Positions 9,721 to 34,602 of a stretch of DNA of 34,746 nucleotides are shown here, piece after piece (the first letter of the stretch is position 1; each line of letters starts with the position of its first letter). A program made the translations under genes and the position numbers. The stretch covers positions 1 through 34,746 of the forward strand of contig JAIXWE010000023.1 in the NCBI GenBank assembly GCA_027482195.1. Direction: 5' to 3'. This stretch comes from Alphaproteobacteria bacterium (GTDB taxonomy: Bacteria > Pseudomonadota > Alphaproteobacteria > Micavibrionales > Micavibrionaceae). The notes below the pieces were generated by a model that saw nothing but the letters and a program-made list of their open reading frames with translations, made no database searches and was not told the DNA's origin.

Positions 9721-10572
9721 ATGAAAGTTGCAGATTTTGAACTTTACAAAGATCTTTTATACACGAAATCGGGGTTGGTCATCACGCCCGACAAATCTTA
9801 TTTGCTCGACTCACGCTTAACCCCAATTGCGAAAAAATGGGGGTTTGCCGATATCGACGCCATGACGTTGAAACTGCGCGCACTTCCTGACCCGAAATTG
9901 GTCATCGATATTGTCGAGGCCATGACCACCAATGAAACATCTTTCTTTCGTGACCTGAAACCCTTTACCCAATTCGAAGATACAATGTTGCCGGCCATGT
10001 TGGCGGCGCGGCAGAATAAAAAAACATTGCGCATTTGGTGTGCGGCGTGTTCTTCGGGTCAAGAACCTTATTCGCTTGCGATGATCTTGCGGGAACGCGA
10101 AGCCCAATTAAAAGGATGGCGTATTGAAATTGTTGCAACCGATATTTCACAAGAAATTCTTGATAATGCGCGCGCGGCGACGTATTCACAATTCGAAGTG
10201 CAACGCGGCCTTCCCATCACTTATTTGATGAAATATTTTGTTCAAGATAATGAGAAATGGAAGTTGAAGGACGATATTAAATCAATGATCAAATATTCCA
10301 TGTTCAATCTTTTGGACGATATGTCACGCCTTGGAACGTTTGACATTATTTTTTGCCGCAATGTGTTGATTTATTTTGATGAGAAAACAAAATCCAAAGT
10401 CTTGACCCAACTGGCCTCACGCCTTGAAAAAGATGGATTTTTGTTGCTTGGCGGTGCGGAAACCGTTTTGGGCATTTCCGATAAATTCAAATTAATGCCC
10501 GAAAAACGGGGGCTTTACATTCACGCCGCCCCGGGTGAGGCCAACACCATCTTACGCACGCAACAGGCTTGA
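9721..10572 (+). CDS. cheR: Chemotaxis methyltransferase CheR
   Basis: 283-residue S-adenosylmethionine-dependent enzyme that methylates receptor glutamates, opposing CheB. An N-terminal helical domain leads into TNETSFFRD, followed by the SAM-binding segment [20 protein letters not shown] (motif I variant), [11 protein letters not shown], and [14 protein letters not shown], then a C-terminal [13 protein letters not shown] element. Length is usual for the family. A GAGAGGG site lies rather far (about 12 bases) before the ATG. It is the last che gene; purH follows after 31 bases without a visible terminator, so read-through is likely. Confidence 0.95.
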
Positions 10573-10603
10573 TTTTAAGGTGTGGCCGCGCTACCAAAGG
10601 CGC

Positions 10604-12157
10604 ATGACAAACACGCCCCCATCTCCAATACGCCGCGCACTTCTTTCTGTTTCTGATAAAACAGATTTGGTTGAGTTTGCACATCTGCTTATCTCTCACA
10701 ACATTGAAATTCTCTCGACCGGTGGTACGGCACAAACCTTGCGCGAAGCAAAAATTCCGGTGACGGATGTCTCCGCTGTCACACAATTCCCCGAGATCAT
10801 GGAAGGGCGCGTGAAAACGCTTCACCCAAAAATCCATGGTGGTATTTTGGCCAAGCGTGACCACGAAGATCACCAACGCGCCATGAGTGATCATAACATC
10901 ACGGGCATTGATTTGGTTGTCGTGAATTTATATCCGTTCGAAAAAACGGTGAATGATGGCGCAGATTTTAAAACCTGTATTGAAAATATTGATATCGGCG
11001 GACCGGCAATGGTGCGCGCGGCGGCGAAAAATTTTCAACATGTGACTCTTCTCACGACCCCTGCCGACTATGCTTTGTTAAAAGACACACTTCCCCACCC
11101 GCCTTCTGTTGAAATACGGCAAAAGCTTGCGCAAAAGGCTTTTGCGATGACGGGTGCTTATGATTGCGCCATACAAAATTGGTTGGCACAGCAAAATAAT
11201 GACTTGTTCCCCGAACGTCTTTTGCTGTCTGCAACCAAGATTCAAGATTTACGCTATGGCGAAAATCCACATCAAGCGGCTGGCGTTTACCGCACGGATC
11301 AGCAACTTGGCGTTGTCAACGCAACACAACTTCAAGGAAAAGAACTCTCCTTCAATAATTTAAATGATACCGATGCCGCTTTTGCTTTGGTGTGTGAATT
11401 TGAAGAACCCGCGGTGGCGATCATCAAACATGCCAATCCGTGTGGTGTTGCCATTGCTTCTGATTGCGTGACCGCATACACGCGCGCGCTTGCCTGCGAC
11501 CCCGTCAGCGCGTTTGGCGGCATTATTGCGCTGAACCGTCCTCTCGATGGCGCAACCGCTTGTGAAATTATCAAGATATTTTCCGAAGTGATCATTGCGC
11601 CGCACATCACCCCTGAGGCGCGTGAGATACTGAAAACAAAGGATAAAATCCGCGTTCTTGAAACGGGTGGGTTGAGTGCGCCGCGCGCGCCCTCACTCAA
11701 TATCCGCACACTCAATGGTGGACTTTTGGTGCAAACAACAGACACCGCACATATCACACAGGATAATTTGCGCGTGGTGACACAGCGCGCCCCAACACCT
11801 GACCAAGTACGTGATCTTTTATTCGCGTTCACTGTGTGCAAGCACGTAAAATCAAATGCGATTATTTATGCGAAGGATGGACGCACATTGGGAATTGGCG
11901 CGGGGCAAATGTCGCGCATTGATTCAACGCGTATCGCCGCGTGGAAAGCGGCGGAAGCAAAGCTTGATCTGCGTGATTGTGTTGTCGCATCGGATGCCTT
12001 CTTCCCCTTTGCGGATGGTTTAATTGCCGCCGCAAACGCTGGCGCCACGGCCATCATTCAACCGGGGGGATCCATCAAAGACCAAGACGTGATCGCGGCG
12101 GCAGATGATCATAACCTTGCCATGGTTTTTACCGGCATTCGCCATTTCCGGCATTGA
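10604..12157 (+). CDS. purH: Bifunctional AICAR transformylase/IMP cyclohydrolase
   Basis: Performs the last two steps of IMP synthesis. 517 residues. The N-terminal MGS-like cyclohydrolase domain has [30 protein letters not shown] and the NLYPFEKTV segment. The transformylase domain has [19 protein letters not shown] with the key Lys-His, DAFFPFADG and QPGGSIKDQ, ending in [10 protein letters not shown]. The ATG at 10604 is preferred because AAAGG is just upstream and the protein then starts as family members do; an upstream extension to 10535 would run into cheR. It is convergent with the unknown gene ending at 12177, only 19 bases away, with no terminator seen. Confidence 0.96.
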
Positions 12158-12176: not shown

Positions 12177-13955
12177 TCAAGGGGCAATGATCATTCCGCC
12201 GGATCCGGGTACACCGCGCAACCCATCTTGAATTGCTTTTCTTTCCGATGCGGCACGCGCTTGTTCCTCCGCCTTAATTTCTTGACCTTTTTCTGCTGAC
12301 CGTTCTCGCGCAAATGATGCGAGGTCTTTATTATCATCAGCAGAGGTCGCCATAATACCACTTTCCATTCCGAGTTCTTCTCTCAACACTTCCAGTGTCT
12401 CTTGACGTGCAGCCGCATCATATTTTCCATGACCTAAATCAAATTCCGCTCCCGGGGTAACCACATTCGCCATGAATCTGAGTGAAAAAATTTCTGAATC
12501 CGTTAATCGTTCTCCGCTTAACGCTCTGGCCGATAAATCATAAAATGATCTTTGAAAAACTTTATCTTCTTGAAGTTTTTTCGTGATACTTAAATCATCA
12601 AATTTTGTTGTGCGTTCCGTATCAAAAGGTGTAAAGGGCGTTTCGCGACGATGCGCCGTTAATCCACCTGTTGAAAGTTCTGCCAACCGCTCATAAGGGC
12701 TTTCTTTTCCTCTCAAAGAAGGAACATAAACAGCAGATGACCACGGACCCTCTTTGTGTGAATAATCATATAAAAGAGTATTCGTTAATTCTCTCAATCT
12801 ATCCGGGTTTAAACTTGAGGGATCTTGGAAAGCTCGCGCAAGGTCACGCACAGCCTCTGGTTTGAAAATTAACGGCTCTGCGAATTCTCTTCCAGCCAGA
12901 GCCGCATTCCCTATATCAGAAGCGGTAATCCCGCGGTTAATCCATCCTGCTGCGCTCCCTGACTTTGATAGCCAACCCCCTACAAACATTGTTCCAACTT
13001 GGCCTGTCATATATGGACCAGCAATATCATTAAAACGGGGATCGCGATTATCAAGAATCTCCGTTGATCCATTATTATTTTTTAAATAGATCGATAACAA
13101 CGCACTTACTTCATATCCTTTAGAGCCATCTGGATTTACTCTTTCAACTAAATACCCTTCCTTTATGAGCTGCTCTGCGCGCTCTTGTGTAAGGGGTTTT
13201 CCGTTATACATCATCCCCATTTTTGCTTCGAATCCAGTCGCCATACGAAATTCAAACTCACCACTGCCAGTTACAGGCTTAATATAAGTATCCCATAAAT
13301 CCTCCACACCCTGCATGGCCCAATCACTGTAACCTTGATCGGATTTATTTCGAAAAGAGTCCATAACAAGATATGTTGCTCCTCCCGCCACATCTCGGAA
13401 AAAGTCGCGCAGCGTTTCGTTAGCGCCCCCTCTGGCATATTCATTTGTCGCTAATGTAAGCCCTAATCGTCCACCTGGGACGAGATTAGCAAGCGTTGAA
13501 GTGAGTGTAGCTCCAGCACTCCGATTAAACGTTGCCCGAAGCGTTGCTCCATCAACGCCAATGACACTCCCTGCAAGATCGAATCCTTGATCAATTTTCT
13601 GGTCCGCCATTTCGCCAAGATTTTGTAACGTTTGTTTAGCGTCGCGAATCGCCTCTGATGCCGCGCGCGTTGTTACGCCAACAGGATCTTCGGTAAGCTC
13701 AGATACCGCCGTAGCCACTGGCTCGACATAAGGCTTTACAGCCTTCACAACGGGTTCCACATAAGGTTTTGCCGCACGAACAACAGGTTTTACAACATAT
13801 GTGTCGACAACATTAGCGACAGGTTCGACGTAAGGCTTTACGGCGCGAGCAACAGGCTTAACAACATACTTATCTGCAGCAGCCGCCGTTTCGCCTAATG
13901 GATCTCTAACGAAATCCCTGCCAAACTCATACCAGCTTCTTTCTTTTTGAGCCAT
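12177..13955 (-). CDS. Unrecognised 592-residue protein with N-terminal undecad repeats
   Basis: I recognise no family. Residues 30-84 consist of about five 11-residue units, alternating YVVKPVxRAxK and PYVEPVxxAVx; the core KPYVEPV recurs at 40, 63 and 74. Such undecads usually form long amphipathic helices, as in LEA-like or membrane-surface-binding segments; that role is inferred. The rest is mixed globular sequence with glycine-rich stretches (for example TMFVGGWLSKSG) but no convincing membrane span or signal peptide. The C-terminus is a charged Glu/Lys/Arg helix followed by PGSGGMIIAP. A good ribosome site (AAGGTG) precedes the ATG at 13955. It is divergent from the next unknown gene across a 201-base AT-rich region. 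Codons look AT-richer than in neighbouring housekeeping genes. Coding status is well supported by length; function is unknown. Confidence 0.75.
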   Translation of the reverse strand: MAQKERSWYEFGRDFVRDPLGETAAAADKYVVKPVARAVKPYVEPVANVVDTYVVKPVVRAAKPYVEPVVKAVKPYVEPVATAVSELTEDPVGVTTRAASEAIRDAKQTLQNLGEMADQKIDQGFDLAGSVIGVDGATLRATFNRSAGATLTSTLANLVPGGRLGLTLATNEYARGGANETLRDFFRDVAGGATYLVMDSFRNKSDQGYSDWAMQGVEDLWDTYIKPVTGSGEFEFRMATGFEAKMGMMYNGKPLTQERAEQLIKEGYLVERVNPDGSKGYEVSALLSIYLKNNNGSTEILDNRDPRFNDIAGPYMTGQVGTMFVGGWLSKSGSAAGWINRGITASDIGNAALAGREFAEPLIFKPEAVRDLARAFQDPSSLNPDRLRELTNTLLYDYSHKEGPWSSAVYVPSLRGKESPYERLAELSTGGLTAHRRETPFTPFDTERTTKFDDLSITKKLQEDKVFQRSFYDLSARALSGERLTDSEIFSLRFMANVVTPGAEFDLGHGKYDAAARQETLEVLREELGMESGIMATSADDNKDLASFARERSAEKGQEIKAEEQARAASERKAIQDGLRGVPGSGGMIIAP

Positions 13956-13965
13956 TTCACACCTT

Positions 13966-14011
13966 CATTTTAACGGCCATTTTATCGGCGAAATATTTTC
14001 CTGTTAAAATG
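13966..14011. repeat. 9-bp inverted repeat in the 5' leader of the 592-residue gene
   Basis: CATTTTAAC at 13966-13974 and its exact complement GTTAAAATG at 14003-14011 are separated by 28 bases. They lie between the candidate minus-strand promoter and the ATG at 13955, so they could be a leader hairpin, which would place the gene's AAGGTG site beside the stem, or an operator pair. Arms are AT-rich, so chance is not excluded. Confidence 0.35.
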
Positions 14012-14014
14012 AAA

Positions 14015-14044
14015 TTTATATGAAAATAATTAATATGAAATTAA
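14015..14044 (-). promoter_or_regulatory. Candidate promoter of the 592-residue gene
   Basis: On the minus strand TTAATT (14039-14044) is followed after 18 bases by TATAAA (14015-14020), five of six matches to the -10 consensus. The -35 element coincides with one half of the CtrA-like box at 14030-14045, the arrangement typical of CtrA-activated promoters, whose own -35 is weak. Confidence 0.4.
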
Positions 14045-14045
14045 C
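14030..14045. promoter_or_regulatory. CtrA-like binding box TTAA-N7-TTAAC
   Basis: Bases 14030-14045 match the alphaproteobacterial CtrA consensus TTAA-N7-TTAAC exactly (spacer TATGAAA). The box lies in the intergenic region between the two divergent unknown genes, overlapping the candidate -35 of the leftward one and about 40 bases upstream of the -35 of the rightward one. The region is AT-rich, which raises the chance of a random match. A ChpT-like gene elsewhere in the window makes a CtrA relay in this organism likely. Confidence 0.4.
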
Positions 14046-14085
14046 TTTTCCAGATTATCGTAAATTTTATTACGTAATGTAATTT

Positions 14086-14114
14086 TTGCAAATCGAGCCG
14101 TCTTGTGCTAGAAT
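14086..14114 (+). promoter_or_regulatory. Candidate sigma-70 promoter for the 760-residue gene
   Basis: TTGCAA at 14086-14091 and TAGAAT at 14109-14114 are 17 bases apart, a good match to the vegetative consensus. The start codon is about 40 bases downstream of the -10, with CGGAG at 14144-14148 as ribosome site. Confidence 0.5.
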
Positions 14115-14156
14115 TGGAAAAAATAAATAAGAAATAATAATTTCGGAGTGTGTGAT

Positions 14157-16439
14157 ATGGGCATTAAATCAAGATTATTGAGCTTAATTGAAGATGTTGA
14201 TTCTTTGAAATTAGGCCGCGCCACGAAACTGGCTTTAAATAACACCTCCATCGTCTCTACTTTAGATGCCGCCGTCGCCAAAGCGGTGCGCCCCGGAGAA
14301 GCCGTCTTCACCGAAGCTGAGCAATTAAATCTTGCGCGCTCTTATAAAAAAATCGCGGACGCGATGAGGCAAGATAATCCGAAAATATCTGATGCACAGA
14401 TTTATCAGAATTTCACACGCTCTATACAAGATGAGTTTGGCTCTAACCGTGGTGCTTTTAAGGAGTTTAGAAGAGCTTTGATGACCGGGCTCGATCAACT
14501 AGATTCTTCGCCTCGTCCTGCAAGACCCACCACAGCAAGACCCGCCGCTGCCGCCGCAGAAGTTGCGGGCGATGCCAAAAAAGGCGCCGAGATGGCTGAA
14601 AGCTTGACTCGGTTCAAAGGCGATGCAGTAGTAGAAAACTATGGTGGCAAAGGGGAAGATGCTCTTGCCGAATATAATGCCGCCTTTTTGCAAACACGCC
14701 AGACCGCAAGACGCCTGGATCTAATCAGCAGTAAATCAAACCTGGATCCTCAAGATGCTGGCAAGGCTCAAAAGATTGCAGACGCATTGCGTGACGGGAT
14801 TCCTGTAACCCCAAATGAGCTTGATGTTCTCGAAGATTTTTACAAAGGTAAGTTAAAAACTCACCTTGATACAAAAGCGGCTGACGCCGCCCGCGCGGCG
14901 CGCGAGGCGGAAGAGGCAACAGCTCGCGCAGCGCGCGAAGCGGAAGCAAAAGCCGCCGCAGACGAAGCAGCGAAAATACCAGAAGAAAAAGCATTGAGAT
15001 CACAAGAACTCTCACAAGAATACATGGCACTTGCATCTGAACTAAATGGATGGCGCTTGGGGAATAGAAGATTCGATGTCAATGAATATTTTGGCAAGTT
15101 AAATGCAATCACAAGAAATCCTGATTTTTCGGATAATGCTCTTGCCTCTTCTGCAAAAACACCAAAAACTATTCAAGAAGATATGATGGCGGGTCTTTCT
15201 GTCAATCCAGAGCAATTGGGTCAACTTAGAGCTTTTTATTCAAGGTTTTATAGCCAAAAAACAACTCAAGCCATGCCAACTTCTGGTGGCATTATTCCTG
15301 GTCAAGGAGGATTAGCCCGCGTTGCCGGTGATATTGTAGCAAACTCAACAGATAATGGCGCAGCTAAAGGTATAGCTTCAAAATATATTAGTTGGAATTA
15401 TGGCGTTAACCTCCCTGCGCTCAGAGTGGCTGCTCCTCTTGTGCTCGTTGGAACCGGCTTAAGCCTTGGTACATATGGTTTTATAAATCCAGATGGGGGT
15501 TTGCCAAGATTTGCCGCCAACATCTTAAACAACAAAGTTTTTGATTATATGACTGGAAATCCAGGACTTCCTGACGGTACGCCTGAGCAAGTACAGCAGA
15601 TTTTCACAATATATAATCAAGATGGCATAAAAAAAGGTGGAGCTGTTGATAAACTTTTTCAAACCTCCTTCAATGTTGACATCAATGATCCAAATGGCAA
15701 AGGTTTTATTGCTGCAGCCCAAGCATTTTACGACCCAAATAATCCTGGCCGTTCATCCATACCCGGCCCTGATTATGCAGCGATGGATTTCTACTTAAAA
15801 ACACAAGCCCGGGTAAAAATGGACGCTGACGGCTCTGCGGTTCTTGCAGGCTTTGAAAAACTATATATTGATACCTCTGCATCGCGCATGCGAACGGATG
15901 TAACTTTCCGCTCTCAAATTTTCAGAGATGCGGGAATAACTAATCCACCAAGCGAAACAGATATTCCGCCTGCAAAGATTCTTGAGATTGCACCATTACT
16001 CTCCGCCAATACGTTGGAAGGTCGTGCTGTTGTGGCTTTCCTTGCTAAATCGAGCGGTATGAAACTTGAAGAAGGGAAAGAGCCTTCTATTCAAGAAATT
16101 GTTGAAGCAGCAAGAAATTCAGCAAAAGACCAAAATGACCTTAAAGTCTCTCAAGCAATGTGGGGAGACAATCAAGGTGATGGTTCGGCCGCTGCGCCTG
16201 CTCAAAATCCTACGGATACCGTAAGTGCTACGCCTGCCAAAATCAAAGGCATCTTTAATGTGATGGCGGAAGACGATCCGAACCTTCAAAGAAATATGAG
16301 CACGATCATGAAAGACTTTGAAGCGGCCACAAAAGGCGGCCAACAGATGACCCGCGATCAGTGGAACGCATTGATGCAACGACATAAGGTTGATCCATCG
16401 ACTGTTGACGCCATGGCACCCAATGTTTTTGGGGGATAA
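14157..16439 (+). CDS. Unrecognised 760-residue protein with duplicated domain around a coiled coil
   Basis: No family recognised. The ATG at 14157 is chosen because CGGAG lies 8 bases upstream. Residues 1-120 are helical and polar. A unit at about 175-240 (LDLISSKSNL ... GIPVTPNELDVLEDFYKGKL) is repeated at about 285-370 (LNAITRNPDF ... GLSVNPEQLGQLRAFYSRFY). The copies flank an Ala/Glu/Arg-rich helix near 240-280 that looks like a coiled coil. One hydrophobic stretch near 418-443 (LRVAAPLVLVGTGLSLGTYGF) may span the membrane, without a signal peptide. The C-terminal part contains several short EF-hand- or Asp-rich-looking loops (INDPNGKG, KMDADGSA), but I would not call calcium binding. It ends in a helical segment with PNVFGG. 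It is followed by another unknown gene on the same strand after 75 bases. Confidence 0.75.
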   Translation: MGIKSRLLSLIEDVDSLKLGRATKLALNNTSIVSTLDAAVAKAVRPGEAVFTEAEQLNLARSYKKIADAMRQDNPKISDAQIYQNFTRSIQDEFGSNRGAFKEFRRALMTGLDQLDSSPRPARPTTARPAAAAAEVAGDAKKGAEMAESLTRFKGDAVVENYGGKGEDALAEYNAAFLQTRQTARRLDLISSKSNLDPQDAGKAQKIADALRDGIPVTPNELDVLEDFYKGKLKTHLDTKAADAARAAREAEEATARAAREAEAKAAADEAAKIPEEKALRSQELSQEYMALASELNGWRLGNRRFDVNEYFGKLNAITRNPDFSDNALASSAKTPKTIQEDMMAGLSVNPEQLGQLRAFYSRFYSQKTTQAMPTSGGIIPGQGGLARVAGDIVANSTDNGAAKGIASKYISWNYGVNLPALRVAAPLVLVGTGLSLGTYGFINPDGGLPRFAANILNNKVFDYMTGNPGLPDGTPEQVQQIFTIYNQDGIKKGGAVDKLFQTSFNVDINDPNGKGFIAAAQAFYDPNNPGRSSIPGPDYAAMDFYLKTQARVKMDADGSAVLAGFEKLYIDTSASRMRTDVTFRSQIFRDAGITNPPSETDIPPAKILEIAPLLSANTLEGRAVVAFLAKSSGMKLEEGKEPSIQEIVEAARNSAKDQNDLKVSQAMWGDNQGDGSAAAPAQNPTDTVSATPAKIKGIFNVMAEDDPNLQRNMSTIMKDFEAATKGGQQMTRDQWNALMQRHKVDPSTVDAMAPNVFGG

Positions 16440-16451
16440 GGGTTAAAAACT

Positions 16452-16480
16452 TTGACTTTTTCGATGAATTAAAGTAATTT
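16452..16480 (+). promoter_or_regulatory. Candidate sigma-70 promoter for the 310-residue gene
   Basis: TTGACT at 16452-16457 and TAATTT at 16475-16480 are separated by exactly 17 bases, just after the preceding stop and 35 bases before the next ATG. It suggests the third gene of the trio can be transcribed on its own. Confidence 0.45.
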
Positions 16481-16514
16481 TGAAGAAAGAAATAAGAAAG
16501 AAAAGAGGGTTAAT

Positions 16515-17447
16515 ATGAGCACAGGAACAGCAGGTCAAGGAACGAACGTTACTCAAACCTTAGTTGACGAGTACAACAAAAGAATTGCCGCGGCTGATAC
16601 GCCTGAAAAAAGAGCCGCCGCAGATGCTTGGCTGCAAGAATCTCTCGGCAGAATCAACATTTATGACTCTAAAAACCGTACTTATGCCAGCTTGCCTGAA
16701 GATTTCAGAAATCTTGTGCTGGATATCTTCAAAAGTAATGCGGAACTCGCAAGATCCAAAGGCTTAGCTCAACAAGAGTTAGATAAAAATACCCAACAAG
16801 CAATCACAGGGCTTTTAACCTCTGCCGAGCAAGGCATCCTTCAAGCAAAACTGTCGGTTGTTCAAGCGCAAGCAGGCATATATGGAATCTTTGGAATGGT
16901 AAGCACCATTGCAAGATTTTTTGGACATAGCCAACTTGCTGACCGTATTGATAATTACATCCAAGATTGGAATCCTGAAGTTGACGTTAATACCGCGAAG
17001 ATCGAAGCACGCGTAGGAAACATGGTCGTTGGCGAGCATGCTGGACACATACCTGGCACAGCGTCAAGAGCTGTGGGCGGAATGTCCACTGTGCTCCCTG
17101 CTGCGGTTGAGAAAGGTGGTAATGCTGCGGATCAGGGTGTTTCTGAATCTGCGGCACCAGATGTCAGATCAGATGCGGGGGCTGCAACCGGGTCAACTGG
17201 CCCGTCCATCGGTGGCGTTGTTCAGTCAATTCGTGGCCTTGCTTCGTCAACGGGTGTTGATGACAACGAAAAATTACGCCTTGATCGTGCTGCACGTAAG
17301 GCCGCAGGGGATGATGGCATGATGAGCCCAACTGATCTTCGTTCTTTTGAAGAATCAAAGGCTTTCAAGGCTCTTTCAGCGAAAGAACAGCAAGCGGTCG
17401 ATAGCGCCGTGCGCAAAAGCTTGGGCCTCGCTCTTGAACCAACTTAA
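16515..17447 (+). CDS. Unrecognised 310-residue helical protein
   Basis: No family recognised. A GAGGG site lies before the ATG. The N-terminal 110 residues are charged and helical (LVDEYNKRIAAADTPEKRAAADAWL). A long amphipathic region follows at about 75-120 (LAQQELDKNTQQAITGLLTSAEQGILQAKL). A modestly hydrophobic patch follows (GIYGIFGMVSTIARFFG), too short for a clear membrane span. Residues 170-245 are Gly/Ala/Ser-rich and probably disordered. The C-terminus (SPTDLRSFEESKAFKALSAKEQQAVDSAVRKS) is again helical. No cysteine is present. A strong terminator follows directly. Position and composition suggest it works with the preceding 760-residue protein; that is inference. Confidence 0.75.
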   Translation: MSTGTAGQGTNVTQTLVDEYNKRIAAADTPEKRAAADAWLQESLGRINIYDSKNRTYASLPEDFRNLVLDIFKSNAELARSKGLAQQELDKNTQQAITGLLTSAEQGILQAKLSVVQAQAGIYGIFGMVSTIARFFGHSQLADRIDNYIQDWNPEVDVNTAKIEARVGNMVVGEHAGHIPGTASRAVGGMSTVLPAAVEKGGNAADQGVSESAAPDVRSDAGAATGSTGPSIGGVVQSIRGLASSTGVDDNEKLRLDRAARKAAGDDGMMSPTDLRSFEESKAFKALSAKEQQAVDSAVRKSLGLALEPT

Positions 17448-17456
17448 CACTCTCCC

Positions 17457-17483
17457 AAAACCCCCGATTAAGGGGGTTTTTTT
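17457..17483 (+). terminator. Rho-independent terminator after the unknown trio
   Basis: AAAACCCCC (17457-17465) pairs with GGGGGTTTT (17472-17480) around a six-base loop, and the T-run continues to 17483. It begins 10 bases after the stop of the 310-residue gene and separates the trio from lepA. Confidence 0.9.
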
Positions 17484-17569
17484 ATGGGGTTGGGTTATTG
17501 TTGGGCTGTGGACGTGGCTGAAATAAAAAATCATTGAAAATCAACGCTTAAACCCCTATCACGGTGGGC

Positions 17570-19387
17570 ATGAGCTTGACCGAAAAAATCCCCCAATCCC
17601 GAATCCGCAACTTTGCGATTATCGCCCATATTGATCATGGCAAATCGACCCTGGCTGACCGCCTTATTGAGACGTGTGGCGGCTTGGAAAAGCGCGAGAT
17701 GAAAGAACAAATTCTCGACAACATGGATATCGAGCGCGAGCGCGGAATCACCATCAAGGCGCAAACGGTGCGCCTGAATTGGAAAGGGCCTGATGGTGAG
17801 ATTTATCAGCTCAACCTCATGGACACGCCCGGGCATGTTGATTTTTCTTATGAAGTTTCCCGCTCGCTCGCGTCGTGCGAAGGCGCGTTGTTGGTAGTGG
17901 ATGCGTCCCAAGGTGTTGAGGCGCAAACATTGGCGAACGTGTATCAAGCGTTGGATAATAATCTCGAAATTATTCCCGTCATCAATAAAATTGATTTGCC
18001 GGCGGCCGATGTGGATCGCGCGAAACAACAAATTGAAGATGTCATTGGGCTTGATGCGTCCAACGCGGTCGCCGTATCGGGTAAAACGGGTTTGAATATT
18101 ACGGATCTTTTAGATGCGATTGTCACGCGTTTACCGGCACCCACAGGTGATCCGGCTGCGCCAACAAAGGCTTTGTTGGTTGACTCCTGGTACGATTCGT
18201 ATTTGGGCGTGGTCATTTTGGTGCGTGTCATTGACGGCACGTTGAAAAAAGGACAAAAAGTGCGTTTCATGAACACGGCCGCCACGCGCGAAGTTGACCG
18301 CGTCGGAATTTTCACACCTAAACATATATTGCTGGATCAATTAGGCCCCGGTGAGATGGGATTCATCACCGCCGGAATCAAAGAGATTTCCGAGACAAAA
18401 GTCGGCGACACGATCACAGATGAAAAACATCAAACGGTCAAAGCCCTTCCCGGCTTTAAACCTTCGGTGCCGATGGTGTTTTGCTCCCTCTTCCCGGTGG
18501 ATAGTTCCGAGTTTGAAAAACTGCGTGAATCGCTGGCGCGCTTGGCTCTCAATGATGCCTCATTACATTACGAGGCCGAAAGCTCTCAAGCGTTGGGAAT
18601 GGGTTTTCGCTGTGGCTTTTTGGGTCTTCTTCATATGGAGATTATTCAAGAACGGATGGAGCGGGAATTTAATCTCGACCTCATCCCCACGGCACCGAGC
18701 GTGGTATATAAGGTTTATAAAACCGACGGTACGATGCAGGAAGTTTATAACCCCGTTGATCTTCCCGACATGGCGCGCATTGAAAAAATTGAAGAGCCAT
18801 GGATCAAAGCCACCATTTTAACCCCGGATGAATATTTGGGCTCGCTCTTGCAACTGTGCCAAGAACGCCGTGGCGAGCAATTGAATTTAAGTTATGTGGG
18901 CAACCGCGCAATGTTGGAATATCGCTTGCCCTTAAACGAAATTGTTTTTGATTTTTATGATCGCCTTAAATCCATCTCGCGTGGGTATGCGAGTTTTGAT
19001 TACCATCTTGATAAATTCATGGAAGGTGATTTGGTACGCATGGATATTTTGGTGAACCAAGAATCGGTCGATGCGTTGGCGATGATTGTGCACCGTTCGC
19101 AATCAGACCGGCGCGGACGGCATTTATGTGAGCGTCTTAAAGACCTTATTCCAAGGCAATTATTTAAGGTCGCGATTCAAGCAGCCATCGGCGGCAAGGT
19201 TATTGCCCGCGAAGATTTATCCGCCCTGCGCAAAGATGTGACGGCGCGGTGTTATGGTGGTGACGTGACGCGCAAGCGGAAACTTCTTGATAAGCAAAAA
19301 GAAGGTAAGAAGAAAATGCGTCAATACGGGAATGTTGACATTCCGCAATCGGCCTTTATCGCCGCACTTAAAATGGGTGATGAGTGA
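17570..19387 (+). CDS. lepA: Translation elongation factor 4 (LepA) GTPase
   Basis: Ribosome-associated GTPase of the EF-G family that acts on translocation or initiation under stress. 605 residues with the usual LepA layout. The G domain has AHIDHGKST (P-loop), [14 protein letters not shown] (switch I), MDTPGHVDF (G3) and NKIDLPAAD (G4). It continues through domains II, III and V to the LepA-specific C-terminal domain, with [25 protein letters not shown] and an [10 protein letters not shown] end. The ATG at 17570 fits family members; a GTG two codons upstream is an alternative. No strong ribosome site is visible. It is convergent with purS, 19 bases apart. Confidence 0.96.
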
Positions 19388-29892: not shown

Positions 29893-30729
29893 TCACGGTG
29901 CGGGTTCCGGGCCAGATGGCGCAGAGCTGGGCGCTGCAGAATCCGCAGGGGCTTCTGATACGCCCAAACTCGCCATAAAGAAATCAACCTTTGTTTTTTG
30001 CCGTTGTGTTAATTTCACATCTGGATCAGTGAGCCCTTCTTTCAAAATCTCAACAGCCTCGGGGCCGAATTTAGGATCTTGTGCGGCTAAAGAAAATAGT
30101 TCTATTGCCTTGCTCAGATTCCGTCTTAATCCATAGCCGTACAAGAACATCGTCCCAAGATTTAAAGCGGCATGCGCATCGCCCGCCGCAAAAAACCATT
30201 TTATGGCCTCAGAATAATTTTGCTCAACGCCTCGGCCGTGAAGATACACAACACCAAGATTATTTTGCGCATCACTAAATCCCTGTTTGGCGGCCTTAAG
30301 ATACCATTTCGCCGCCTCTTCATCATCTTTCTCAACACCTAGACCGTTAGAATAACAAAGGCCAATATTGAATTGAGAAGAAGCGTGTCCTTGTAATGCG
30401 GCATCCATAAAAAACTTGAACGCTTTCGCCGCGCTTGGCGGCGTGGCTTTTCCATCGCTGTAGTACAAACCAAGATTAATCTGCGCCTTATCTAAACCTT
30501 GGTCGGCCGCCTCGTGAAACCATTCAAAGGCTTTGGAATAATCCTGCTCAACGCCATGACCTTTATGGTACATGATGGCCAAATTATTTTGTGATTTCGC
30601 GTAACCTTGTTCCGCGGCAAATTTAAAAAAATCAAAGGCCGCTTTAAAATTGCCCTCATCATAAAATGATTTTGCTGTCTTATTTATCTGATCAAGCAGC
30701 TGATCTAAATTTCGTGAATTCTGAGACAT
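29893..30729 (-). CDS. Sel1-repeat protein, longer paralogue
   Basis: 278 residues, about six Sel1-like repeats: AEQGYAKSQNNLAIMYHKGHGVEQDY, ADQGLDKAQINLGLYYSDGK, ALQGHASSQFNIGLCYSNGLGVEKD and AKQGFSDAQNNLGVVYLHGRGVEQNY, followed by a less regular pair. The ATG at 30729 is chosen because GGAGG lies about 8 bases upstream; the ATG 15 bases earlier would be part of that ribosome site. No signal peptide or membrane span is seen. The C-terminal tail SAPSGPEPAP matches the shorter paralogue. The pair interrupts the usual mreB-mreC adjacency. Binding partners are unknown. Confidence 0.87.
   Translation of the reverse strand: MSQNSRNLDQLLDQINKTAKSFYDEGNFKAAFDFFKFAAEQGYAKSQNNLAIMYHKGHGVEQDYSKAFEWFHEAADQGLDKAQINLGLYYSDGKATPPSAAKAFKFFMDAALQGHASSQFNIGLCYSNGLGVEKDDEEAAKWYLKAAKQGFSDAQNNLGVVYLHGRGVEQNYSEAIKWFFAAGDAHAALNLGTMFLYGYGLRRNLSKAIELFSLAAQDPKFGPEAVEILKEGLTDPDVKLTQRQKTKVDFFMASLGVSEAPADSAAPSSAPSGPEPAP
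29903..29932. repeat. 30-bp direct repeat, copy in the longer Sel1 gene
   Basis: Second copy of the block at 29149-29178, same orientation, encoding the same proline-rich C-terminal tail. Confidence 0.85.
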
Positions 30730-30847
30730 ACGCAGTACCTCCATGCGGTTATGCGTTCTTGTGTAACAAGAGCAATCTTAAGCCGCAAGAAAATTATGTA
30801 TTTCTGTTGAGATAAGTATTTTTATTATGTATATTAATTCATTCACT

Positions 30848-32294: not shown

Positions 32295-32340
32295 ATAAGA
32301 CATAATTTTATTGACAGAATTCTGAAATCGGGGGTATGAA
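32295..32340 (+). promoter_or_regulatory. Conserved promoter block of the first repeat-protein gene
   Basis: TTGACA (32311-32316) is followed after 18 bases by TATGAA (32335-32340), 46 bases before the ATG. The -35 and the 16 bases upstream of it (32295-32316) are identical to 33352-33373 ahead of the second paralogue. A small hairpin (GGAGTT 32273-32278, AACTCC 32285-32290) lies just upstream. Confidence 0.55.
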
Positions 32341-32386
32341 GAGATATCGTGCGCCAATATTACAAAACTGCGTAAAGGAGAAAGAT

Positions 32387-33313
32387 ATGTACACCAAAGA
32401 ATTACCCAAGGATTTGAAACGATATGTGCCCATCAGTCACGACGATCGTAAACTTGGCCTTGCGCATATTCAAAGTAAAATTGGTGAGGCCGCAGAAAAA
32501 TTCTGTGCTACGAAATGGTATGAGGATTTTTTGCGCATACTACGAGCTGCTAGCCGCTCACCGGAGTTGCTTGCGGGTGTTTCACCTGATCTGCTGAGAC
32601 AAGCTGTAGAGGAGTGTTTGAATAAAAAAGAATATGATTTTCTCTCAGGTGTGGTAGGGGCCGTCAGCCAAGTACCGGAATTGCTCGCGGTCATCTCCCC
32701 CGACATGATCACGCAAGGCGCACAAGGGTTGTTGGATAATGGGTGGTATAATGATTTTTCTGATATTGTAAAATCCGTAAGCTCTCAACCGGAGTTAATA
32801 ACGGCCATCTCCCCCGCCATGGTTACCCAAGCCGCGCAAGGATGCTTGGATAAAGGGTGGTATCATGATTTTTCACTTCTTGCAGAAGCCGCCAACCAAG
32901 TACCAGAATTTCATGCGGCCATTACACCATTTGTTACCCAAGCCGCCAATAATTTGTTGGATAAAGGCTGGATTAGTGACTATTCCGACGTGGTAAAAGC
33001 CGTAAGCAACTCACCAGAATTATTGGCGGCTGTGAAACCTTCTGCGCATTTGGAGTTTTTGTCTTCGCGCGAAACGGGGCACGACTATGATGTTCTCATC
33101 GCCTTTCCGAAAGATGGCCTCCTAGCTGAGCTTTCGGGCGGGTGCAAGCACATAACAGGTCTTAAAAAACTTCAAGATCATTGGGCGGCTAAAGATGATC
33201 GCCAAGTAATTTGGGGGCGTGTTGTGGGCGTGTTTCAAAAAGTCGCCGCCGACCCCGAAAACCCATCAGCCCCCATCGCCCAACGCGAATTACGTGCGGT
33301 TGGATTGGGTTAG
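32387..33313 (+). CDS. Unrecognised helical-repeat protein, paralogue 1
   Basis: 308 residues; no named family recognised. The N-terminal cap MYTKELPKDLKRY ... DRKLGLAHIQSKI aligns without gaps to the two following genes. Five repeats of 37-38 residues then run from about 43 to 228, with a consensus like WYxDFSDIVKAVSxxPELLAAISPDMVTQAAQGLLDKG; each looks like a helix pair, so an alpha-solenoid is likely. The C-terminal cap contains LIAFPKDG and ends APIAQRELRAVG. Three successive repeat junctions near 32732, 32846 and 32957 are also alike in DNA, spaced 114 and 111 bases, so expansion looks recent. No signal peptide or membrane span is seen. AAAGGAG six bases before the ATG decides the start. 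Confidence 0.82.
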   Translation: MYTKELPKDLKRYVPISHDDRKLGLAHIQSKIGEAAEKFCATKWYEDFLRILRAASRSPELLAGVSPDLLRQAVEECLNKKEYDFLSGVVGAVSQVPELLAVISPDMITQGAQGLLDNGWYNDFSDIVKSVSSQPELITAISPAMVTQAAQGCLDKGWYHDFSLLAEAANQVPEFHAAITPFVTQAANNLLDKGWISDYSDVVKAVSNSPELLAAVKPSAHLEFLSSRETGHDYDVLIAFPKDGLLAELSGGCKHITGLKKLQDHWAAKDDRQVIWGRVVGVFQKVAADPENPSAPIAQRELRAVGLG

Positions 33314-33429: not shown

Positions 33430-34602
33430 ATGTACTTCAAAGGATTACCAGAGGGGTTAAATCGCCATGTCGACATCACCTTTGGTGATCGCGTCGCGGG
33501 CCTTGCACAGATTTGCAAAAAAATTACACACGCCGCACAAAAAATTTTGGATGACGGTACCACACGCGAAAAATCTTATGCGGATTTTTTTGATTTGGTT
33601 GCCATGACACAATCGCAACATGATCTTAACGGAACCATCACCGGGGAAATTTTACAACATGCCGCGTGTGATCTTTTGAACAACGAAGATTTTTATTCTT
33701 TTGTGCGTCTTGCAAAAGCGGCAAGCGTGCATCCCGAATTTTATCAAGAAATTCCGGCGAAGAGTGTGAAAGACGCCGCACGGGGTCTTTTGCAACATAA
33801 TGATTTTCATTCCTTTGCGGAGCTGACCGAAACAGCTGGCGCGGTTCCTTCGTGGCGGACGGCCATCACCAGCGAGATGATGATTGACGCAATAAAATCA
33901 GCAATAAAACGTGATTTTTATGGACATACGGTGAGGCTTTTAAGCGCGGCAAATTCTCATGAAGATGTAAGACAATCTCTTTCATCCTCTCTGGTTGCAC
34001 CGATTGCGCAAGAGCTTCTTAAAAGAAATCAGTATAAAGATTTCTTGGAACTGAGCCGCATTGTCGATGACAACAAATCTTGGCATGACGCGCTGCGCCC
34101 TGAGATGATCATGCACCATGCGGATGATTTATTGCGTCAACGCGCGTATTATACTTTTTACACACTCGCAAAAGCGACAGAAATCCATCCAACCTCACAT
34201 GTTGCTCTTATTCCACCCTTACAACGTACGGCTACAAATCTTTTAAACGAACATGATTTTAAGACGCTTATGCATCTTCTTGATTGCATCAGCGACACCC
34301 CAAAATTGCAACAAGCGGCTTCGATCAATTCTGATTTAGTGCGTTTGGTGAGAAATAATGACGCACAAAAAACCCCTATCCTCATTACCTTTCCCGAAGA
34401 TGGGCAAGGTGATGTCGGGCTTTATACCGTCTATGCAAAGTTTACAGGGCTTTTGTCACTCACAGCGGAATGGGGCGGATTGCCCAATCCTGACCCCATG
34501 ATGAAAAGAGTTATTGACGCTTTTCGTTCTGTTGCAAATGACCCTACACAAAAGGGTGCAGAAATTGCGCAACGCGAATTACGCTCTATCGAGCCCAATT
34601 GA
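33430..34602 (+). CDS. Unrecognised helical-repeat protein, paralogue 2
   Basis: 390 residues with the same plan as paralogue 1. The N-terminal cap is MYFKGLPEGLNRH ... DRVAGLAQICKKI. About seven helix-pair repeats of 36-38 residues follow (for example DFYSFVRLAKAASVHPEF, DFHSFAELTETAGAVPSW, YYTFYTLAKATEIHPTS). The C-terminal cap has LITFPEDG and AFRSVANDP and ends GAEIAQRELRSIE. Its repeats are far more diverged from each other than those of paralogue 1, and it has two more. GAGGAG precedes the ATG. The next paralogue starts 13 bases after its stop, so those two are cotranscribed. Confidence 0.82.
   Translation: MYFKGLPEGLNRHVDITFGDRVAGLAQICKKITHAAQKILDDGTTREKSYADFFDLVAMTQSQHDLNGTITGEILQHAACDLLNNEDFYSFVRLAKAASVHPEFYQEIPAKSVKDAARGLLQHNDFHSFAELTETAGAVPSWRTAITSEMMIDAIKSAIKRDFYGHTVRLLSAANSHEDVRQSLSSSLVAPIAQELLKRNQYKDFLELSRIVDDNKSWHDALRPEMIMHHADDLLRQRAYYTFYTLAKATEIHPTSHVALIPPLQRTATNLLNEHDFKTLMHLLDCISDTPKLQQAASINSDLVRLVRNNDAQKTPILITFPEDGQGDVGLYTVYAKFTGLLSLTAEWGGLPNPDPMMKRVIDAFRSVANDPTQKGAEIAQRELRSIEPN

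Follow-up and report, generated by a model that had tools for sequence, protein, structure and literature searches.

A fast-changing three-gene locus between purH and lepA in the Micavibrio family that may encode an inner-membrane-associated envelope module

The 34,746-nucleotide stretch analyzed here (the window) is one of the 125 contigs of a 1.8-Mb alphaproteobacterial genome, designated G000, and carries three long genes, here called A, B, and C, between purH and lepA (Table 1). The che genes and purH lie to the left of this locus, and lepA lies to its right. The initial annotation had described three long genes in this interval, a divergent layout around one control region, and a strong terminator closing the rightward pair, all of which proved accurate. 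The gene coordinates and lengths are right, the AT-rich gap between A and B in G000 bears sigma-70-like sites on both strands, and the hairpin after C has a predicted folding energy of −23.7 kcal/mol (z, −2.9).

Table 1. Positions of genes A, B, and C, their control elements, and the bordering genes in the window
Feature	Position	Strand	Length or composition	Remark
purH	10535-12157	+		left border of variable site; convergent with A
Gene A	12177-13955	-	592 aa	between purH and lepA
A/B divergent control region	13956-14156		201 bp, 26% GC	promoter-like sites on both strands
Gene B	14157-16439	+	760 aa	start is ATG at 14157
Gene C	16515-17447	+	310 aa	
Intrinsic terminator	17457-17485	+		ends the B-C operon; 9-pair stem, then a T run
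lepA	17564-19387	+		right border of variable site

Open frames in relatives at 26 to 35% identity indicate that A is a selected protein-coding gene; the coding status of B and C is backed by position and weaker similarity. The mechanically called open reading frame of B opens 9 bases earlier at a GTG, and the ATG listed in Table 1 has a good Shine-Dalgarno sequence, CGGAGTGTGTGAT. The gap between A and B is AT-rich across relatives also (17 to 31% GC), and a palindrome common to these gaps was not established when they were compared. An extended Shine-Dalgarno sequence like AGGTGTGTG or GGAGTGTGTG was seen in an A-rich leader ahead of many of the genes that fill the purH-lepA interval, here called cargo (window positions 14145 to 14159 and the leaders of relatives). 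The idea that this sequence is a special feature of the cargo was not borne out.

For comparison, lepA and purH were located in 142 genomes of the order. The family of G000, f1, also includes G047, which was taken as Micavibrio aeruginosavorus ARL-13, and f1 was taken as the Micavibrio family. By sequence, relatives of A were found in five genomes of genus g29, with E values of 6e-41 to 9e-8, and a profile of A run over 385 genomes of the class had G000 itself as its sole match. The first contig scan with B found no relative, and a search with an alignment of C matched four g29 records. The same order and orientation, with A leftward and B and C rightward, is common to G000, G066, G072, and G076, where it stands beside lepA, and to G073, where it stands at another site. 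Extra genes precede lepA in G066 and G076; purH precedes the three genes in G072 and G076, and the G066 contig ends within A. The intact unit in G073, in the same orientation, sits between dapB and an M16 peptidase gene. In G071, one contig has A adjoining purH and a second has the end of B, together with C, near lepA, consistent with the same arrangement split between contigs. At the lepA site of G073 (L029:1-1635), which lacks A-B-C, polysaccharide-type genes accompany the end of a gene for a long, repetitive, cadherin/VCBS-like protein.

The joint occurrence in five genomes supports the proposal of the initial annotation that the three genes form a single functional module. Independent occurrence of the genes, which the same annotation had set against its proposal, was found in part: G069 and G070 lack A and carry B-C-type genes behind a co-directional first gene, D, so that strict linkage, in which none of the three occurs without the others, does not hold. 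A relationship between A and D was considered and is not supported (hhalign E value, 0.38). The evidence thus supports A, B, and C as one module whose linkage is not absolute.

A positional triplet with the same layout is present outside g29. The purH-lepA interval of G092 (genus g32) holds genes of 552 aa on the minus strand and of 676 and 299 aa on the plus strand. The B profile matches the 676-aa gene at 1e-6, and in hhalign comparisons with about 30 families plus controls this gene ranks first for B and the 299-aa gene second for C, while the counterpart of A is recognizable by place alone. So-called orphan genes can therefore have true relatives hidden by divergence; here, position found what the sequence search had missed.

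The interval is occupied throughout the family. Gaps were measured in genomes that have purH and lepA on a single contig and in one orientation, with purH first and no more than 35 kb between them, which gave 47 genomes of the family in 19 genera; genomes in which the two genes fall on split contigs and those with other arrangements (e.g., G061, G054, G055, G026, G021, and G111) were left out. In 47/47 of these genomes the gap measures 2.9 kb or more, with a median of 7.5 kb and two outliers (G067 and G068) at 25 to 34 kb, compared to 0.9 to 2.5 kb in five genomes from two other families. In G061, purH and lepA converge and are 1.7 kb apart. Other genera of the family carry at this site a related set of proteins of about 550 to 2,100 aa, mostly above 1,000 aa (29 in one cluster), and two smaller proteins, of 120 and 160 aa, that form a conserved pair (50 in one cluster); some genera also carry an A-like protein of 320 to 880 aa that begins with an amphipathic stretch and contains a hydrophobic hairpin. 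Giant proteins and the 120/160-aa pair were seen at L035, L037, L038, L042, L044, L054, L056, and L059 to L074.

These giant-protein versions share with A-B-C the site, the hydrophobic segments, which are found in most of the giant proteins, the presence, in some genera, of the hairpin-bearing A-like protein, and the lack of a known family: there is no solid Pfam match among the scanned proteins that fill the site in other genera, and we know of no description of the giant proteins with their 120/160-aa pair. They differ in that none of them resembles A, B, or C significantly in sequence; the best comparison, of A with the A-like family, gave an hhalign E value of 0.03 over 31 columns, which is only suggestive of a relationship between the two. 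The purH-lepA interval is thus a family-wide, fast-changing site where layout can outlive sequence.

The extent of the change is apparent within g29, where LepA proteins are 88 to 98% identical and those of A and C are only 21 to 34% and 13 to 36% identical, respectively. The A and C proteins of this genus are hardly nearer to one another than to those of G000, which belongs to another genus, and identity in A is uncorrelated with identity in LepA (r = 0.11). DNA identity of the flanking che, purH, and lepA genes in g29 comparisons is mostly 67 to 85%, which indicates well-separated species, so that part of the divergence reflects saturation and any exchange at these flanks is old. Recent exchange via purH or lepA, which a PurH identity of 88% between G072 and G076 had prompted us to consider, was rejected on the same grounds. 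The purH gene of G072 (L008:8750-10336) has a GC content at third codon positions (GC3) of 0.64, compared to 0.37 to 0.48 in the neighboring che genes and lepA, and its product is unusually close to that of G076, as if acquired.

Parts of the cargo have also been swapped. The B gene of G070 (L028:6925-8061), compared against L024 and L033, is chimeric: the first two-thirds resemble B of G069 (138/257 aligned residues identical), and the last third resembles B of G068 (79/115 aligned residues identical), with an abrupt change from one type to the other. Its C partner agrees with this last third, being 70% identical to C of G068. C may therefore pair with the end of B, although neighboring genes would be co-inherited even without any contact between their products. 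In the close pair G067/G068, the ratio of nonsynonymous to synonymous substitution rates (dN/dS) is 0.10 to 0.24 in the cargo, compared to 0.01 to 0.15 in flanking genes, with similar dS; the cargo of this pair is under purifying but looser selection and is not clearly younger than its flanks. These values bear on the explanation that A, B, and C are structural envelope proteins under weak constraint, whose divergence would result simply from scaffolds of coiled-coil or disordered type being under relaxed selection, with no part played by exchange or an arms race. Such a view would fit the helical, low-complexity composition of the proteins and the values from this single close pair, where dN/dS stays under 0.25 and dS is like that of the flanks. 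The mosaic B gene, the wholesale difference in gene content at the site between genera, and the intact unit elsewhere in G073 argue against it, and we regard it as unlikely.

Base composition separates the three genes from their surroundings at synonymous sites. They had been described as AT-richer than their neighbors, which is true of GC3 (0.34, 0.36, and 0.39 for A, B, and C, compared to 0.40 to 0.56 in the other 23 window genes tested and about 0.49 nearby) and not of whole-gene GC content, which at 0.46, 0.46, and 0.49 is inside the neighbors' range of 0.44 to 0.52. Their codon index of 0.60 is the lowest among 26 genes. The low-GC3 trend recurs in the cargo of G066, G069, G070, G073, and G076 and is less clear in G072. 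Likewise, of the Ala- and Glu-rich composition attributed to the proteins, the former is apparent (11 to 14% Ala), whereas the Glu content (5 to 8%) is unremarkable. With regard to a horizontally acquired island, the codon usage is unlike that of the neighbors; no mobile-element gene was found among A, B, and C or, as far as Pfam was run, in the relatives' cargo, and the window contains no tRNA gene of the kind that borders islands.

Hypervariable cassettes amid housekeeping genes are typical of defense and competition loci, and the low GC3 would also suit a fast-changing, membrane-based module for defense against, or exclusion of, phages or competitors. Such a function appears quite improbable, since A, B, C, and D match no PADLOC model, the single-pass protein X encoded in g29 versions of the locus matches one only at 0.09, no nuclease, NTPase, protease, or toxin domain was found, and the proteins were not detected beyond close relatives. 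More generally, hypervariable cargo sites such as surface-polysaccharide islands and polymorphic toxin or defense hotspots resemble the purH-lepA locus in their fixed borders, changing cargo, mosaic genes, and atypical codon usage. The purH-lepA locus differs in that it has no known cargo family, its layout is partly kept where sequence is lost, and no mobile-element gene was seen.

None of the three proteins had been recognizable at first sight, and profile searches bear this out. Comparisons with Pfam, NCBIfam, PADLOC, and PDB sequences gave no family match for A, B, or C, those with PHROGs gave a single weak and uninformative match, and those with phage, plasmid, and IMG/VR collections gave nothing usable. 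The N-terminal extension of protein A is long and helical and holds repeated KPYVEPV stretches, absent from relatives; it is followed by a conserved core at approximately residues 200 to 530 with the motifs GEFEFRMATGF, YNGK, PEA(V/I), and Y(V/I)PSL, within which two weakly hydrophobic helices are predicted at about residues 306 to 354. The N-terminal part of B is helical and Ala rich and carries a 35-residue helical unit, I..L..G.P(I/V)(T/S)..EL..LE, of which G000 and G076 have one copy and G066, G072, and G073 have two; a single membrane helix is predicted at about residues 419 to 437, ahead of the C-terminal part. Protein C is helical, with a hydrophobic helix at about residues 115 to 133 followed by a family-invariant FG and with a compact helical C-terminal domain predicted at residues 230 to 307. 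One membrane segment is predicted in most B and C proteins of the set. Where this segment is clear in B, positive charge is greater before it than after it across relatives, which suggests an inside N terminus.

In the fold comparisons, matches to PNPase and spidroin domains were set aside because matches at such a level mean little for helical bundles. The C-terminal domain of C gave weak matches to S100/calbindin (E values, 0.04 and 0.02), and EF-hands are absent among its fold matches. An EF-hand-like loop, DQNKDSMLQPAE, is confined to the B proteins of G067, G068, and G070.

The cargo of relatives suggests a link between the locus and the cell wall. Versions in g29 add, besides X, a lytic transglycosylase and an NlpC-like protein. 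The SLT domain (PF01464) is present in the cargo of G076 (E value, 5e-11) and G066 (E value, 3e-9), with a homolog in G070. The NlpC-like protein is encoded in G070, G075, G067, and G068, with C and H invariant in the four members; its homologs in G028 and G092 contain DCSGF or DCSGL and match PF00877 below the cutoff (E values, 4e-4 and 0.02). In G070, the SLT and NlpC-like genes (L028:11563-13308 and L028:13408-15057) share their N-terminal 100 residues at 52% identity, as if one anchor bears different wall-cutting heads. In G092, roughly 20 kb away from lepA, an NlpC-like gene adjoins a lysozyme-type gene, of glycosyl hydrolase 108 (L051:8962-11009), and neither product appears to carry a signal peptide.

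A set of large, helical, Ala-rich proteins that have hydrophobic hairpins or segments and are accompanied by an SLT enzyme resembles the internal (ejection) proteins of podoviruses, such as gp14 to gp16 of T7. The locus could accordingly be read as domesticated phage cargo, i.e., internal virion or ejection-type proteins and lysis enzymes retained and exchanged at a chromosomal site, and for the SLT gene of G070 the PHROG comparison gave a match to an endolysin family (1e-16), although an SLT match is generic. This origin seems very improbable: A has no relative in 50,697 phage records, neither A nor C has one in IMG/VR, and A-B-C show no phage sequence or fold match. No capsid, portal, terminase, or integrase gene was recognized in the intervals seen, and the site is a stable chromosomal locus filled in 19 genera.

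A role in attack on prey or host cells would have A and C released or injected and then inserted into the membrane of a neighboring cell, with the wall enzymes assisting and an arms race driving the divergence. The family includes M. aeruginosavorus, an obligate epibiotic predator (PMC3189940), and the hyperdivergence, the swapping of parts, and the peptidoglycan hydrolases of relatives would be in keeping with such a role. Profiles of the A-like, B, C, X, and NlpC-like proteins list no match in the Micavibrio genomes G046 and G047 (G046 counted as Micavibrio by genus), in which no purH match at 1e-100 was found either; this lowers the predation idea, as the best-known predator of the family appears to manage without the module. 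Neither a secretion signal nor adjoining secretion genes were found; for ARL-13, type I and type II secretion, and not type III or IV, have been reported (PMC3189940). We therefore consider an attack module unlikely, and a predation role is not supported.

Our leading interpretation, held tentatively and at less than even confidence, is that A-B-C constitutes an envelope module that is associated with the inner membrane and diversifies rapidly. It would be the form taken in G000 by a quickly changing cargo found between purH and lepA in the Micavibrio family. The three proteins would most likely assemble on the inner membrane. B would serve as a single-pass anchor with a long cytoplasmic helical and repeat part and a periplasmic C-terminal part, and A and C would start out soluble and helical and would reach B at the membrane via their hydrophobic helices. 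Since membrane-anchored peptidoglycan-cutting enzymes, either a lytic transglycosylase or an NlpC/P60-like protein, are added at the same slot in relatives, the assembly probably works at or through the wall. Its partners change together, and the reason may be that the assembly meets something variable, such as other cells, hosts, or phages. The initial annotation had suggested a surface, envelope, or secreted assembly. The membrane segments and the relatives' wall enzymes point to the envelope part of that suggestion, namely, the inner membrane and periplasm; neither a surface anchor nor a secretion system, which would favor the other parts, was found for the three proteins.

Several observations weigh against this interpretation. 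The B and C proteins of G000 are only weakly linked to their counterparts by sequence (pairwise BLAST to G066, 7e-6 for B and 1e-4 for C); profiles containing G000 find it by construction, and a B profile made without G000 fails to find it. Position therefore carries the argument for co-occurrence, and the A-less loci of G069 and G070 count against that argument. The hydrophobic segments are modest, with none above 1.2 on the Kyte-Doolittle scale in A of G000, and a signal peptide is not apparent in A, B, or C. AlphaFold2 models were poor (predicted local distance difference test scores of 47 for A and 46 for C), and those of A and C had no credible fold match in Foldseek (PDB and viral) or VIA-align. 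The G000 site has no SLT or NlpC-like gene, and the X and NlpC-like profiles match nothing in the G000 genome, which makes the step from the relatives to G000 a weak one. Relaxed constraint, moreover, can likewise give high divergence.

Type III, IV, and VI secretion systems and conjugation machines, which span the envelope and have a lytic transglycosylase of their own, resemble the proposed module in having single-pass inner-membrane proteins and, as in the relatives, a co-encoded peptidoglycan hydrolase. They differ in that no ATPase, outer-membrane ring, pilus, or sheath gene was recognized in the intervals seen, no energizing ATPase or outer-membrane ring domain was found in A, B, C, or the other scanned cargo proteins, and the window's own A-B-C version lacks the hydrolase. 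In a broader proposal, the purH-lepA site would encode cell-envelope machines of a class not yet described, working on or across cell walls and diversified by contact with other cells or phages, with A-B-C and the giant-protein versions as divergent forms; at present this seems rather unlikely to be correct. A site that is filled across about 19 genera with undescribed families, and in which layout can outlast sequence, points strongly to a function that is important and adapts rapidly. The group that holds the site includes epibiotic predators, and if the link to the wall is true, the locus would be a candidate for the way in which these small bacteria and other cells interact.

Elsewhere in the window, two more genes without a Pfam match are located near the right end, at 32336-33313 (325 aa) and 33430-34602 (390 aa). 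A gene for a Sel1-repeat protein (29893-30744), with a low GC3 of 0.41, adjoins the mreB/mreC/PBP2/rodA cell-shape cluster.

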